Shown: positions 7,001 through 22,328 of the stretch, one piece after another
How positions within the stretch are numbered: the first letter of the stretch is position 1
Layout of the letters: the number at the start of each line of letters is the position of its first letter
Source: Candidatus Pelagibacter sp.
Lineage (GTDB): Bacteria > Pseudomonadota > Alphaproteobacteria > Pelagibacterales > Pelagibacteraceae
DNA length: 33,562 bases
NCBI GenBank assembly: GCA_002692055.1
Contig: NZJW01000008.1
Coordinates: forward strand, 7,997 to 41,558
Reading direction: 5' to 3'
Notes under the pieces: model-generated
Told to the model about the DNA's origin: nothing
The model's database searches: none
Seen by the model: the letters and a program-made list of their open reading frames with translations, nothing else
Position numbers and translations under genes: made by a program

Positions 7001-8263
7001 GGAAGAAATATTGAACTAACACTTGAAAAAGATGGTGTAGTTATTGCATCCTTTAAAGTCCCATATGGTTCAAAATTATATGCTAAACCAGATGATCAGA
7101 TTAAAAAAGGACAGAAAATCTGTGACTGGGATCCTTACACAGTTCCGGTAATTGCAGAGACTTCTGGTATTGCAAACTACGTCGATTTAGTTGATGCAGT
7201 ATCAATTGCTGACAAAACTGATGAGGCAACTGGAATTTCATCGAAGATAGTCTTAGACTGGAGATCACAGTCAAAGAATTTAGATTTAAAACCAAGAATA
7301 ACTTTAAGAGATAGCAAAGATGAAGTAGTTTTAAAAGCTGATGGAAATGAAGCTAGATATTATTTATCACCAGAGACAATTTTATCAGTAGCTGATGGCG
7401 ATAAAGTAAACGCAGGCGATGTGTTAGCAAGACTACCTAAAGCAACCTCTAAAACAAAAGATATAACAGGCGGTTTACCAAGAGTTGCTGAATTGTTTGA
7501 AGCAAGAAAACCTAAGGATGGAGCAATAATTGCTGAAAATGATGGTGAAATAATTTTTGGCAAAGAAATTAGGGGTAAACAAAAAATTACCATTAAAGGA
7601 AAAGATGGATTAGAATCTAATTATCTAATTCCAAAAGGTAAACAAATTAACTATAACCCTGGAGAAAAGATTTCCAAAGGTGAATACTTGTTAGATGGTA
7701 GTCCCGCAACGCATGACATTTTAAGAATACTTGGTATAGAATCATTAACAGATTATTTTGTTAATGAAGTTCAAGATGTTTATCGCCTTCAAGGTGTTGT
7801 GATAAATGACAAGCATATTGAAGTTATTTTAAGACAAATGTTAAGAAAGTTAGAAGTAAAAAATCCAGGAGACAGCGAAATGCTTAGTGGTGAAATAGTA
7901 GATAAAATTGATGCTAAAATAATCAATGAAAAATTAAAATCTGAAGGTAAAAAAGAAATTGAATTTGACCCTGTTATGCTTGGGATTACAAAAGCTTCTC
8001 TACAAACAAAATCTTTTATTTCAGCTGCATCATTTCAAGAGACCACAAGGGTACTTACTGATGCATCATTAAAAGGTAAGTCAGATGATTTAATGGGTCT
8101 TAAGGAAAATGTTATTGTAGGAAGGTTAATTCCTGCCGGAAGTGGACAAAGTAGACAGAAATACAATAAAATTGCCAAAGATAGAGACCTTGAGCTTGAA
8201 AACAAGATGGCATCAGAGACAATTAGTTCTGAAGCTGAAGAACAGCCTGTAGAGGCTCAATAA
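4079..8263 (+). CDS. rpoC: DNA-directed RNA polymerase subunit beta'
   Basis: Catalytic beta' subunit, 1394 residues. The N-terminal zinc site is intact (C71, C73, C86, C89 in ECLCGKY...CEKCG). The Mg-binding loop NADFDGDQ is at about residues 458-465, where E. coli has it. The secondary-channel and trigger-loop region ([16 protein letters not shown]) is present. In the second zinc site C813, C887 and C894 correspond to E. coli C814, C888 and C895, but the fourth position reads Ser ([11 protein letters not shown]897) where E. coli has C898. An extra cysteine sits at 811 (NCDCGS). A GGAG motif eight bases before the ATG lies inside the end of rpoB. The protein ends in an acidic tail ([13 protein letters not shown]). 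Identity is certain; the zinc-site change is described in the findings. Confidence 0.99.
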
Positions 8264-8309
8264 AGCAGAAAAATTTAGTAAATTTTAAGTGAATTCGCTA
8301 AGTGATATG

Positions 8310-8337
8310 TTGACGTTCATCAAATAATCAGTATTAA
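8310..8337 (+). promoter_or_regulatory. candidate sigma-70 promoter for rpsL and the long ribosomal operon
   Basis: TTGACG (8310-8315), a 16-bp spacer, and TATTAA (8332-8337) resemble -35 and -10 elements. The predicted transcription start, about seven bases downstream (near 8344), falls at the first base of the structured leader at 8345. That agreement is the main reason for reporting a -10 with only a moderate match. It lies in the only sizeable gap of the first 22 kb. No RNA data are available, and read-through from rpoBC is equally possible. Confidence 0.5.
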
Positions 8338-8344
8338 TAGCCCA

Positions 8345-8421
8345 CTTTTTAAGGTAGCACGTAAGGCTAATGTTGGCTTTAAACTACTACCAACAACTTA
8401 CCAAAACCTATTCTTAAAAAG
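8345..8421 (+). promoter_or_regulatory. structured mRNA leader of rpsL (nested stems)
   Basis: Three nested complementary pairs can be read directly: CTTTTTAAG (8345-8353) with CTTAAAAAG (8413-8421), a perfect 9-bp outer stem; GTAAG (8361-8365) with CTTAC (8397-8401); and TGTTGG (8371-8376) with CCAACA (8390-8395), closing a 13-nt loop. An alternative pair, GGTAG (8353-8357) with CTACC (8387-8391), would compete with the outer and inner stems. The outer 3' arm ends nine bases before the rpsL ATG, so folding would cover the ribosome entry site. The likely role is autogenous control by a ribosomal protein (inference). I recall an Rfam rpsL leader family from Rickettsiales/Pelagibacter-type genomes but cannot confirm that this belongs to it. 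Confidence 0.65.
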
Positions 8422-8430
8422 ATTATAATT

Positions 8431-8802
8431 ATGCCAACTATAAACCAGTTGTTAAAAAAAAAGCGAGTTAAACAGTTAGTAAGGAACAAAGTTCCTGCTC
8501 TGCAAGCATGTGCATTAAAAAGAGGAGTATGTACTAGAGTTTATACAACTACTCCAAAAAAACCAAATTCGGCTTTGAGAAAGGTTGCCCGAGTAAGACT
8601 CTCAAATGGCTTTGAGGTTACAGCATATATTCCTGGAGAAGGACATAATTTGCAAGAACACTCAGTGGTAATGATTAGAGGTGGTAGAGTTAAAGATCTA
8701 CCAGGCGTAAGATATCATGTTGTAAGAGGCTTATTAGATACTCAAGGTGTATCAAATAGGAAACAACAAAGATCAAAATATGGAGCAAAGAGGCCTAAGT
8801 AA
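8431..8802 (+). CDS. rpsL: 30S ribosomal protein S12
   Basis: Decoding-centre protein of the small subunit, 123 residues, the usual length. The two conserved loops are intact: [12 protein letters not shown] with K43, and [13 protein letters not shown] with K88, D89 and P91. These are the wild-type residues at positions where streptomycin resistance changes occur; D89 is the known methylthiolation site in the family. No strong Shine-Dalgarno sequence precedes the ATG, but a folded leader does. It is the first gene of a tightly packed run of 25 genes. Its stop overlaps the rpsG start by one base (TAATG). Confidence 0.99.
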
Positions 8803-9277: not shown

Positions 9278-11356
9278 ATGACTAAAGTTTTTTCAAAAGA
9301 TAAATATAGAAACATAGGTATCATGGCTCACATAGATGCAGGAAAAACAACAACTACAGAACGAGTTCTTTATTATACAGGTAAGTCTCATAAGATAGGT
9401 GAAGTACATGATGGCGCCGCTACTATGGATTGGATGGAGCAAGAACAGGAAAGGGGAATTACAATTACCTCTGCAGCCACTACTTGTTTTTGGAAAGATC
9501 ATAGAATAAACATTATAGATACTCCTGGACACGTAGATTTCACTATTGAGGTTGAAAGATCTTTAAAGGTATTAGATGGAGCCGTTGCTGTTTTTGACGG
9601 TGTTGCAGGTGTCGAGCCCCAATCAGAAACGGTTTGGAGACAGGCAGATAAGTACAAGGTTCCAAGGATGTGCTTTGTAAATAAATTAGATAGAACAGGA
9701 GCAGATTTTTATCGCTGTGTTGATATGATAAAGGAGCGTTTAGGAGCAACTCCTTTAGTTTTACAAATTCCAATTGGAGCCGAAGCAGAACTTAAAGGTG
9801 TAGTTGATTTAGTAAAAATGAAAGGCCTTGTTTGGGAAGCTGAAGATCTTGGTGCAAAATTTAATGAAGTAGAAATTCCAGTAGATTTGAAGGAGAAAGC
9901 TGAAAAATATAGAAAAGATCTCATTGAAACAGCTGTGGAACAAGACGAAAAATTAATGGAAGCTTATCTGGATGGCAAAGAAATAAGTGAGGATGATCTT
10001 AAAAGATGCATTAGACAAGGTACCTTAAATTTTAGTTTTGTTCCAGTTTTGACTGGTTCGGCCTTTAAAAACAAAGGGGTACAGCCTTTATTAGACGCGG
10101 TAGTTAATTATCTTCCGAGTCCACTAGATCTTAAAGAAATCAAAGGTACTGAACCTGGCACAGATCAAGAGCTAATAAGAAAATTTGATGATAGCGAACC
10201 ATTTTCTGCATTAGCTTTCAAGGTTGCAAACGACCCGTTTGTCGGAACTATTACCTTTATAAGAATATATTCTGGAAAACTAATTTCTGGTACTGGAGTG
10301 TTAAATTCTACCGCAGACAAAGAAGAGAGAATTGGAAGAATGCTTTTAATGCATGCCAATGATAGAGAGGATATAAAAGAGGCAAGCACAGGAGATATTG
10401 TTGCATTAGCAGGTTTAAAACATACAATTACAGGCCATACATTATGCAACAAAAATGATCCAATTATTTTGGAACCAATGGAATTTCCTGATCCTGTGAT
10501 TGAAATTGCAGTGGAACCAAAAACTAAGGGTGACCAAGAAAAAATGGGCGAGGCATTACAGAGGTTAGCGAAAGAAGACCCTTCGTTTAGAGTTACATCT
10601 GACAACGAGTCTGGCCAAACGATTATTAAAGGTATGGGTGAATTACACTTAGACATTATTGTTGATCGCATGAAAAGAGAATTTAAAGTTGACGCAAATA
10701 TTGGAGCACCTCAAGTTGCTTATAGAGAAACAATTGAGAGATCAGCACAAGTTGATTATATACACAAAAAACAATCCGGTGGTTCCGGTCAATTTGCAAG
10801 GGTAAAAATAACAGTTGAGCCTCAAGAGCCAGGTAAAGGTAGAGAGATTGAGAGTTTAATTAAAGGCGGGGCAATACCAAAAGAATTTATCCCAGGTGTT
10901 GAAAAGGGCATAGAAGGAGTTGCAGATTCAGGAATTTTAGCAGGATTCCCTGTTATCGATTATAAAGTTCAAATAATAGATGGCTTACATCATGACGTAG
11001 ATTCAAGTGTTCTAGCTTTTGAAATTGCAGCAAGAGCTTGTTTTAAAGAAGCTTGTCAAAAAGGCGGCTTAAAACTTCTCGAACCAATTATGAAAGTAGA
11101 AGTGGTCACTCCAGAGGATTATATGGGTGATGTAATTGGTGATCTCAATAGCAGACGTGGGCAAGTTGGTTCAACTGACAAAAGAGGAAATGCAACAGTA
11201 ATTAATGCTAACGTTCCTTTAGCAAATATGTTTGGCTATGTTAACAATTTAAGATCAATGTCACAAGGAAGAGCACAATATACGATGCAATTTTCTCACT
11301 ATGAAAAAGTACCACAAAATGTTCAAGATGAAGTAACAAAAAAATTAGCAGGATAA
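9278..11356 (+). CDS. fusA: translation elongation factor G
   Basis: GTPase that drives ribosomal translocation and, with RRF, ribosome recycling; cytoplasmic. From the ATG at 9278 the protein is 692 residues, normal for EF-G. GTPase motifs are complete: G1 [12 protein letters not shown] (residues 17-28), the switch region [12 protein letters not shown]3 DTPGHVDF and G4 NKLD. Domain II, the G-domain insert and the C-terminal tRNA-mimic domains ([21 protein letters not shown]) follow in order. The ORF track extends to a GTG at 9266, but family alignment and the AGGTGG motif support the ATG. The next gene is rpsJ, three bases after the stop; the tuf gene usually found here is absent. Confidence 0.98.
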
Positions 11357-11359
11357 TAA

Positions 11360-11668
11360 ATGGATCAACAGAGTATTAGAATTAGATTACAGGCATACGA
11401 TCATAAGATACTTGATCAGTCCACGGAAGAAATTGTAAATACTGCAAAACGGACTGGCGCGCAAATAAAAGGCCCAATTCCCCTTCCTACAAAAAAAGAA
11501 ATTTACACAGTATTACGTTCACCACATATTGATAAAAAAAGTAGGGAACAGTTCGAAACAAGAACACATAAAAGATTAATTGATATAATGGAACCAACCC
11601 CAGCTACAATTGAGGCATTAATGAAATTAGATTTAGCTGCAGGTGTTGATGTGGAGATTAAAATATAA
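11360..11668 (+). CDS. rpsJ: 30S ribosomal protein S10 (NusE)
   Basis: Small-subunit head protein that also acts as NusE in antitermination complexes. It is 102 residues, standard, with the S10 blocks [36 protein letters not shown] and [16 protein letters not shown]. It starts three bases after the fusA stop. There is no room for the long leader through which L4 controls the S10 operon in E. coli. rplC follows after two bases. Confidence 0.99.
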
Positions 11669-16005: not shown

Positions 16006-16006
16006 A

Positions 16007-16201
16007 ATGAAAACTTCTGAATTAAAAAAACTATCAGTCACTCAGCTTGAGAAAGAGTTAACAAATTTTAAAAAAGAAAAGTTTAATCTAAGATTTCAAA
16101 AAGTTAATTCTCAAGTTCAAAATACCACTAGAGTACGAACAGTGAGAAGATCAATTGCAAAGATTTTAACGTTCTTAAATCAGAAAAAGAAAGATAATTA
16201 A
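16007..16201 (+). CDS. rpmC: 50S ribosomal protein L29
   Basis: Small helical protein beside the tunnel exit and L23. It is 64 residues, normal for the family, with the two-helix pattern ELKKLSVTQLEKELTNFKKEKFNLRFQ and VRTVRRSIAKILTFLNQKK. Position between rplP and rpsQ is the standard one. Overlaps rpsQ by one base (TAATG). Confidence 0.97.
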   Translation: MKTSELKKLSVTQLEKELTNFKKEKFNLRFQKVNSQVQNTTRVRTVRRSIAKILTFLNQKKKDN

Positions 16202-16431
16202 TGACAAAAAGAGTTTTAACAGGAAAAATAGTGAGTTCAAAAAATAAGAACACTGTTGTCATCCAAGTAGAGAGAAAATTCAGGCATCCGGTATTAAAAA
16301 AAGTTCTTAAACGCTCAAAAAAATATCATGCTCATTATGAAACTGGAGATTTCAAAGTAGGTGATCGGATAAGGATAATTGAAAGCAAACCAATTTCTAA
16401 ATTAAAAAAATGGAAGGTTTTAATTAATTAA
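16201..16431 (+). CDS. rpsQ: 30S ribosomal protein S17
   Basis: OB-fold primary binder of 16S rRNA. It is 76 residues, at the short end of the family. It shows [32 protein letters not shown] and the conserved [30 protein letters not shown]. rplN follows after one base. Confidence 0.98.
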
Positions 16432-16432
16432 T

Positions 16433-19326: not shown

Positions 19327-19824
19327 ATGAGTCAAATAAGTGAATTTAAAGAAAAGTTAGTAGCCATAAATAGAATTACTAAAGTTGTAAAAGGTGGAAG
19401 AAGATTTGGTTTTGCAGCACTAGTAATTACTGGAAATCAAAAGGGCCAAGTAGGTTTTGGCCAAGGTAAAGCAAAGCAGGTTCCAGATGCAATTAGAAAA
19501 GCTTCTGAAGCTGCAAAAAAATCTTTAGTAAAAGTGCCTTTAAGAGAAGGTAGAACCTTACATCACGATGTACGGGGTAAGAATGGTGCAGGCAAGGTTT
19601 TGTTGCGTAGTGCTCCTGCAGGAACGGGCATAATTGCTGGAGGTCCTGTAAGAGCAATTTGCGAAATGTCAGGTATCCAAGACGTTGTAGGAAAATCTAT
19701 TGGTTCTTCAAACCCATACAATTTGGTTAGAGCTTCTTTCGATGCATTAATGAAACAAAAATCACCAAAAGAGATATCATTAATAAGAGGAAAAAAAATT
19801 AAAGAAATAGTTTCTAGAAGGTAA
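19327..19824 (+). CDS. rpsE: 30S ribosomal protein S5
   Basis: S5 acts in decoding fidelity and helps line the mRNA entry channel. It is 165 residues. The N-terminal double-stranded-RNA-binding-like domain is clear ([39 protein letters not shown]), followed by [24 protein letters not shown] and [15 protein letters not shown]. In most bacteria rpmD (L30) comes next; here rplO begins two bases after the stop, so L30 is missing from the cluster. Confidence 0.99.
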
Positions 19825-19826
19825 TT

Positions 19827-20282
19827 ATGGTTGAACTGAATAATCTTAATAAAAAAATACATAAAGCAAAAAAAAGAGTTGGCCGTGGAATTGGTTCTGG
19901 TTTAGGCAAAACATCTGGCAGAGGAGCTAAAGGACAAAAATCAAGATCAGGCGTCTCAATAAAAGCTTACGAAGGTGGACAAATGCCTTTATATAGAAGA
20001 CTTCCAAAAAGAGGATTTAACTCCTTATATAAGAAAGAAAAAAATGTTGCAATTAATTTACATAATATCAGCAAATTAATAGTCACAAAAAAACTAGATT
20101 CATCTAAGTTAATTGATTTAAGGAAATTTTTACTAAAGCCAAAAACACCAAAAAAACTTAAAGTGAAAGTTCTAGGAACCGGAGACTTTAAAATAAAAGT
20201 TAGTATAATGGCAGACAAATTTAGCAAATCTGCACAAGCCAAAATAGAAAAGGCTGGCGGTACAGTAGAAATAATTAAATAA
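19827..20282 (+). CDS. rplO: 50S ribosomal protein L15
   Basis: Late-assembly large-subunit protein. It is 151 residues, normal. The glycine-rich N-terminal arm is diagnostic ([27 protein letters not shown]), followed by [17 protein letters not shown], and it closes with a [10 protein letters not shown]-type C-terminus. It follows rpsE directly and precedes secY by six bases. Confidence 0.98.
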
Positions 20283-22269: not shown

Positions 22270-22271
22270 AG

Positions 22272-22299
22272 TTGACTTTGTAACCTTGATTACTATAAT
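22272..22299 (+). promoter_or_regulatory. near-consensus sigma-70 promoter for rpsM-rpsK-rpoA-rplQ
   Basis: TTGACT (22272-22277), a 16-bp spacer and a perfect TATAAT (22294-22299) lie in the 59-bp gap between adk and rpsM. Five of six -35 bases and six of six -10 bases match consensus. The predicted start near 22306 leaves only about 23 bases before the rpsM ATG, containing a T-run followed by an A-run. This is the best promoter match I found in the window. Confidence 0.8.
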
Positions 22300-22328
22300 C
22301 CAATTTTTTTAAAAATAGGCAATTTTCT

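Follow-up and report, generated by a model that had tools for sequence, protein, structure and literature searches.

The rpsL upstream region and its promoter

In the window, that is, the whole stretch of 33,562 nucleotides from Candidatus Pelagibacter sp. (SAR11) that was analysed, rpoC ends at position 8263 and rpsL, the first gene of a large ribosomal cluster, starts at 8431. The intergenic gap contains promoter-like sequence and a leader (8344-8430) located directly 5' of rpsL. The preliminary description of this DNA counted 25 tightly packed genes after the leader; this run, rpsL to adk, is confirmed except at the gap 16006-16432, which we take as the site of two small genes. Within the cluster, fusA is followed directly by rpsJ (11356-11360) without an intervening tuf, an arrangement that differs from the classical str operon, and rplO comes directly after rpsE (19824-19827), the place where rpmD (L30) normally lies having no gene. 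Further downstream, a gap of 59 nt between adk and rpsM (22270-22328) breaks the tight packing, and a second promoter or leader could fit there.

A promoter had been predicted from the sequence of the window with its start at the outer stem of the leader, and the comparison with relatives agrees with this prediction: TTGAC, a 16-nt spacer and a -10-like hexamer accompany the element in 15 of 15 genera, 23 of the records having been parsed by eye instead of by script. The predicted transcription start is probably around A8344, at the outer stem. A generic promoter scan did not list the leader promoter, because its -10 hexamer ends in A. The discriminators of SAR11 (8338-8343 in the window) are rich in G+C, often AGCGCA, within an A+T-rich genome; such a discriminator would be in keeping with a promoter sensitive to growth rate or ppGpp.

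Table 1. Positions of the promoter, the leader parts and rpsL in the window.
Feature	Position	Strand	Remarks
Promoter: TTGACG (8310-8315), 16-nt spacer, TATTAA (8332-8337), discriminator TAGCCC	8310-8337	+	Spacing conserved in 15 SAR11 genera
P1a 5' arm (outer stem), CUUUUUAA(G)	8345-8352	+	Partner 8413-8421; co-evolves between genera
P1b 5' arm, GGUAG	8353-8357	+	Conserved and covarying (swap test, helix-level null)
GUA	8361-8363	+	Start of P2 and 5' side of internal loop; in the alignment an invariant GU is followed by A or G
P1c 5' arm, GUAAG	8361-8365	+	Competes with P2, crosses P1b
P2 5' arm, UAAGGC	8362-8367	+	96.8% of cells paired; double changes at 4 of 6 pairs
P2 3' arm, GCUUUA	8376-8381	+	Partner of 8362-8367
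UAAAC	8380-8384	+	Last two P2 bases plus AAC; in the alignment only the middle A varies (>90% A), the other four bases being invariant
P1b 3' arm, CUACC	8387-8391	+	Partner of 8353-8357
P1c 3' arm, CUUAC	8397-8401	+	Partner of 8361-8365
P1a 3' arm, CUUAAAAAG	8413-8421	+	Ends 9 nt 5' of rpsL ATG (8431)
rpsL (ribosomal protein S12)	8431-8802	+	Gene 1 of the cluster

Folding of the single leader

All pairs listed in the preliminary description are present, namely an outer stem of 9 bp (8345-8353 with 8413-8421, here P1a), a middle stem of 5 bp (8361-8365 with 8397-8401, here P1c), an inner stem of 6 bp (8371-8376 with 8390-8395) and an alternative pair, GGTAG (8353-8357) with CTACC (8387-8391), here P1b. 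The distance of nine nucleotides given there between the end of the outer 3' arm and the ATG is likewise exact. The minimum-energy fold of the leader (-15.7 kcal/mol) consists of the outer, middle and inner stems and three extra pairs, and with a z-score of -2.1 and 7 of 200 shuffled sequences folding equally well, the predicted fold by itself is only modestly better than chance. GGTAG/CTACC had been considered mutually exclusive with the outer stem, but the two have only base 8353 in common, and a fold that combines GGTAG/CTACC with the outer stem and one further hairpin reaches -15.0 kcal/mol.

Relation to known rpsL leader families

An rpsL motif of 'Cand. Pelagibacter ubique' was proposed in 2009 by Meyer et al. 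(PMC2704228), who argued from context that r-protein expression is controlled and were unable to name a binding partner, and it corresponds to Rfam family RF01823 ('rspL'). The comparison with Rfam that had been suggested for the window returned no match at the gathering level, and RF01823 (gathering threshold 37 bits) did not match its sense strand. An antisense match to RF01823 (21.9 bits, 8279-8404) was dismissed as chance, the family reading in the sense direction in three genomes of genus g4. In these, sense-strand rpsL leaders scored 86-97 bits, and several other genera gave sub-threshold scores of 25-33 bits at the equivalent place. A model that included Pelagibacter and left out the window's clade (R2) found the window leader as its sole match in the window, at the exact position, with 23.1 bits and E=0.013; the full model scored it at 52.7 bits, the window being among its training sequences.

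RF01823 and the window leader are both SAR11 elements located between rpoC and rpsL, on the same strand and in the same large operon, and both have a bulged P1, a covarying P2 hairpin and a conserved AAAC after P2. They differ in that the P3 hairpin of RF01823, which belongs to a three-stem junction, cannot form in the window leader because the linker 8392-8412 (AACAACTTACCAAAACCTATT) has no G for the 5' strand of P3, and in that P1b, present in the window leader, is missing from the Rfam structure; in the closest genus the arms of P1b are invariant and the helix is therefore undetectable by covariation. The leader is accordingly a divergent homologue of RF01823, the rpsL motif; because it scores below the Rfam threshold and lacks P3, it is called a variant rather than filed as a member.

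The Rickettsiales family mentioned in the preliminary description, RF01774 (rpsL_ricks), is probably not the relative of this leader; RF01823 is. RF01774 had no match in the window at the gathering threshold, and 61 SAR11 genomes likewise gave none, although the control genomes of that search were unmatched too.

Conservation of the leader across SAR11

The rpsL 5' regions compared comprised 116 SAR11 leaders from 15 genera and two Pelagibacterales families. They share the order TTGAC promoter, P1a 5' arm, P1b 5' arm, 2-4 nt, GUA, P2 and UAAAC, followed by 1-2 nt, the P1b 3' arm, a linker, the P1a 3' arm and the ATG. Every one of the 116 leaders has P1b with 5/5 or 4/5 pairs, made from sequences that vary among clades: the window's clade has GGUAG/CUACC, other clades have GUUAG/CUAAC and AGUUA/UAACU, the genus that best matches RF01823 has GGUUG/CUGCC (one mismatch), and the second family has AGUAG/CUACU or AGAAG/CUUCU. 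The arms of P1a also change from genus to genus, from CUUUUUAAG/CUUAAAAAG in the window to AUUUUGAA/UUCAAAAU in g5, UUUUGAUA/UAUCAAAA in g2 and UUUGUGG/CCACAAA in g9.

Across the window's family, the rpsL ATG has no Shine-Dalgarno sequence before it. The second family (g15-17) gives no support for P1a and has GGAG ahead of this ATG; leaders L157 and L159-L166 of this family retain the P1b/P2 core next to an unsupported outer stem and the Shine-Dalgarno-like GGAG, as if the output part had been swapped. In g12 (L009, L012, L040-L042), parts of the P2 arms reappear downstream as AAGCU(UU), and additional competing pairs are possible there. The trained full model matched neither 62 non-SAR11 rpsL loci nor, under strict filters, any of 188 further genomes from the class. 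As far as tested, the leader element is restricted to SAR11.

Tests of the helices

A core alignment of 54 sequences was made with MAFFT, which is unreliable for the linker across genera, and P1c was therefore kept off the alignment tests. P1b and P2 together showed standard pairs in 86.5% of cells, compared with 74.2% in shuffles and 21-50% when the arms were slid, and RNAalifold recovered P2 without a supplied structure. In an R-scape-like test, in which columns were re-evolved independently along a FastTree tree, no single pair covaried significantly under the phylogenetic null, the best being the P2 pair 22-39 with E 0.88. At the level of whole helices, the covariation of P2 and that of P1b each exceeded 500 of 500 simulations (p=0.002). 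The covariation among relatives that had been proposed as a check of the stems is thus found for P1b and P2 as helices but not for single pairs.

Swapping the 3' arms between genera, in a test that treats genera as exchangeable and in which the register of P1b was set clade by clade, weakened the pairing of P1b (p=1e-4) and P2 (p=5e-5). The same test gave p=5e-5 for P1a when the last 38 nt of the leader were considered and p=0.004 with the whole downstream region, whereas P1c showed no co-evolution between genera (p=0.45). The outer stem of the preliminary description is therefore conserved and co-evolves between genera but has no support in the second family, and the middle stem GTAAG/CTTAC exceeds shuffled sequences (see below) but lacks co-evolution between genera. 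The inner stem GTTGG/CCAAC is confined to the window's genus and a sister genus (g1 and g8). The nested three-stem fold does not hold as the conserved structure; the covarying core is instead P1b plus P2, and the P2 hairpin UAAGGC/GCUUUA, which had gone unnoticed, is the best-supported helix across relatives and is bordered by the near-invariant GUA and UAAAC. These results support a structured, conserved cis element at the head of the operon.

A competing pairing, P1c

The middle stem of the window is one case of something more widespread: in most of the first family, the sequence around GUAAGG has a potential partner in the linker, immediately 5' of the P1a 3' arm, as for example in L054 (GAAGUAAGG/CCUUACUUC). 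Because P1c shares bases with P2 and crosses P1b, P1c and P1b plus P2 are alternatives; a pseudoknot of P1b and P1c was considered and dropped, the 5' strand of P1c being common to P2. When only the linker was shuffled, the pairing probability of the P1c strand was above the shuffled-linker mean in 11 of 12 genera and the ensemble energy was below that of the shuffles in 12 of 12 (Wilcoxon p=0.0005), with the placement of the P1a 3' arm approximate for some genera. This makes a leader with two conformers plausible. A simple duplex z-score for P1c gave no decision either way. Predicted thermodynamics prefer the competing fold in most genera.

The preliminary description had suggested a two-state switch. 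Competing folds are indeed plausible, but the states differ from those first proposed, the conserved conformer being the pair then called the alternative together with P2. With the states re-assigned in this manner, a true switch would mean that conformer I (P1b+P2, with P1a weak and the start region open) and conformer II (P1a+P1c, a long helix with the start region closed) are both selected and that a ligand shifts the balance between them. Besides the linker shuffles, the window itself speaks for such a switch, as its two folds are 0.7 kcal/mol apart and the predicted probability of P1a falls from 0.99 with P1c forced to 0.13 with P1b+P2 forced. However, this balance is not conserved, since elsewhere in the window's genus the competing fold is preferred by about 5 kcal/mol, and in other genera the forcing of P1b+P2 alters the accessibility of the start region in some and not in others. 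P1c also lacks co-evolution between genera. A selected two-state switch is plausible but less probable than the reading put forward in the Discussion.

Discussion

With moderate confidence, we propose that the leader is a ribosomal-protein leader that places the 25-gene run under autogenous translational control. Transcription would begin at the outer stem, and the conserved conformer would be a stem of P1a, P1b and P2 with an internal loop of G opposite UAAAC. The P1b helix, at a fixed distance to GUA and UAAAC, likely marks a candidate protein site, within which the near-invariant UAAAC is a probable candidate recognition element. An r-protein encoded in the operon may bind this P1b/P2 internal loop and, when bound, set whether P1a stays closed. 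As the P1a 3' arm would lie within the 30S footprint, just before an ATG without Shine-Dalgarno sequence, closure of P1a would be expected to lower rpsL translation, and tight coupling of the genes could carry the lowered translation through the 25-gene run; pairing of P1c would form a second conformer and possibly the other state. Against this reading stand the lack of a significant single pair, the predicted preference for the competing fold in most genera, the mixed effect of forcing P1b+P2 on the start region, the failure to find an rRNA mimic and, in the second family, an unsupported P1a together with GGAG before the ATG.

In E. coli, several r-proteins of this operon are known to act as feedback regulators (PMC2704228). 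The S7 repression site of the E. coli str operon belongs to the same gene cluster and shares the proposed autogenous logic, but it is located between rpsL and rpsG whereas the window leader lies 5' of rpsL, and Meyer et al. (PMC2704228) found it to have no structural likeness to their motif. A search for rRNA mimicry by covariance model and motif scan, which covered the rRNA of G006 and G031, gave no convincing match, the motif being short and the power low; no 16S was found in the window's own assembly, and rRNA was therefore taken from a sister genome.

It is unlikely that the leader is simply a stable 5' end or a standby site that acts on mRNA stability or initiation without sensing a ligand: the outer stem does begin at the predicted first nucleotide, and the rpsL ATG of this family has no Shine-Dalgarno sequence, but a near-invariant unpaired G, the AAC and a covarying hairpin exceed the needs of a simple 5' stem. 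A transcription attenuator like that of Rickettsia, for which the shared gene, the position 5' of rpsL in another alphaproteobacterium and the family first suggested would speak, is very improbable, since RF01774 carries a terminator (Naville and Gautheret, 2010, PMC2965389) whereas the window leader has no terminator-like site, the Pelagibacter element was judged short of terminator criteria (PMC2965389) and RF01774 was unmatched in the SAR11 genomes searched without a positive control.

Returning to the ribosomal-protein leader, what is added here is the covarying P1b helix, its fixed spacing to GUA and UAAAC, and P1a adjoining an ATG without Shine-Dalgarno sequence, the idea that r-protein expression is controlled, with which we agree, having already been published. 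The published structure, which came from a single genus, is revised by P1b, by the fixed P2/UAAAC core and by an occurrence in fifteen genera instead of one; the current Rfam model overlooks most of the order. P1b and the P2/UAAAC core also provide a specific target for binding tests.

A tentative extension of the proposal is a bistable leader, in which the order-wide P1b+P2 would stand against the published long helix P1c and one r-protein of the operon, acting at the G/UAAAC loop, would set how most ribosomal genes of this very abundant marine lineage are translated. The cells of SAR11 rank with the most abundant in the sea, and few regulators are known from them. Placed before 25 ribosomal genes, one RNA would be a main lever on their growth machinery.
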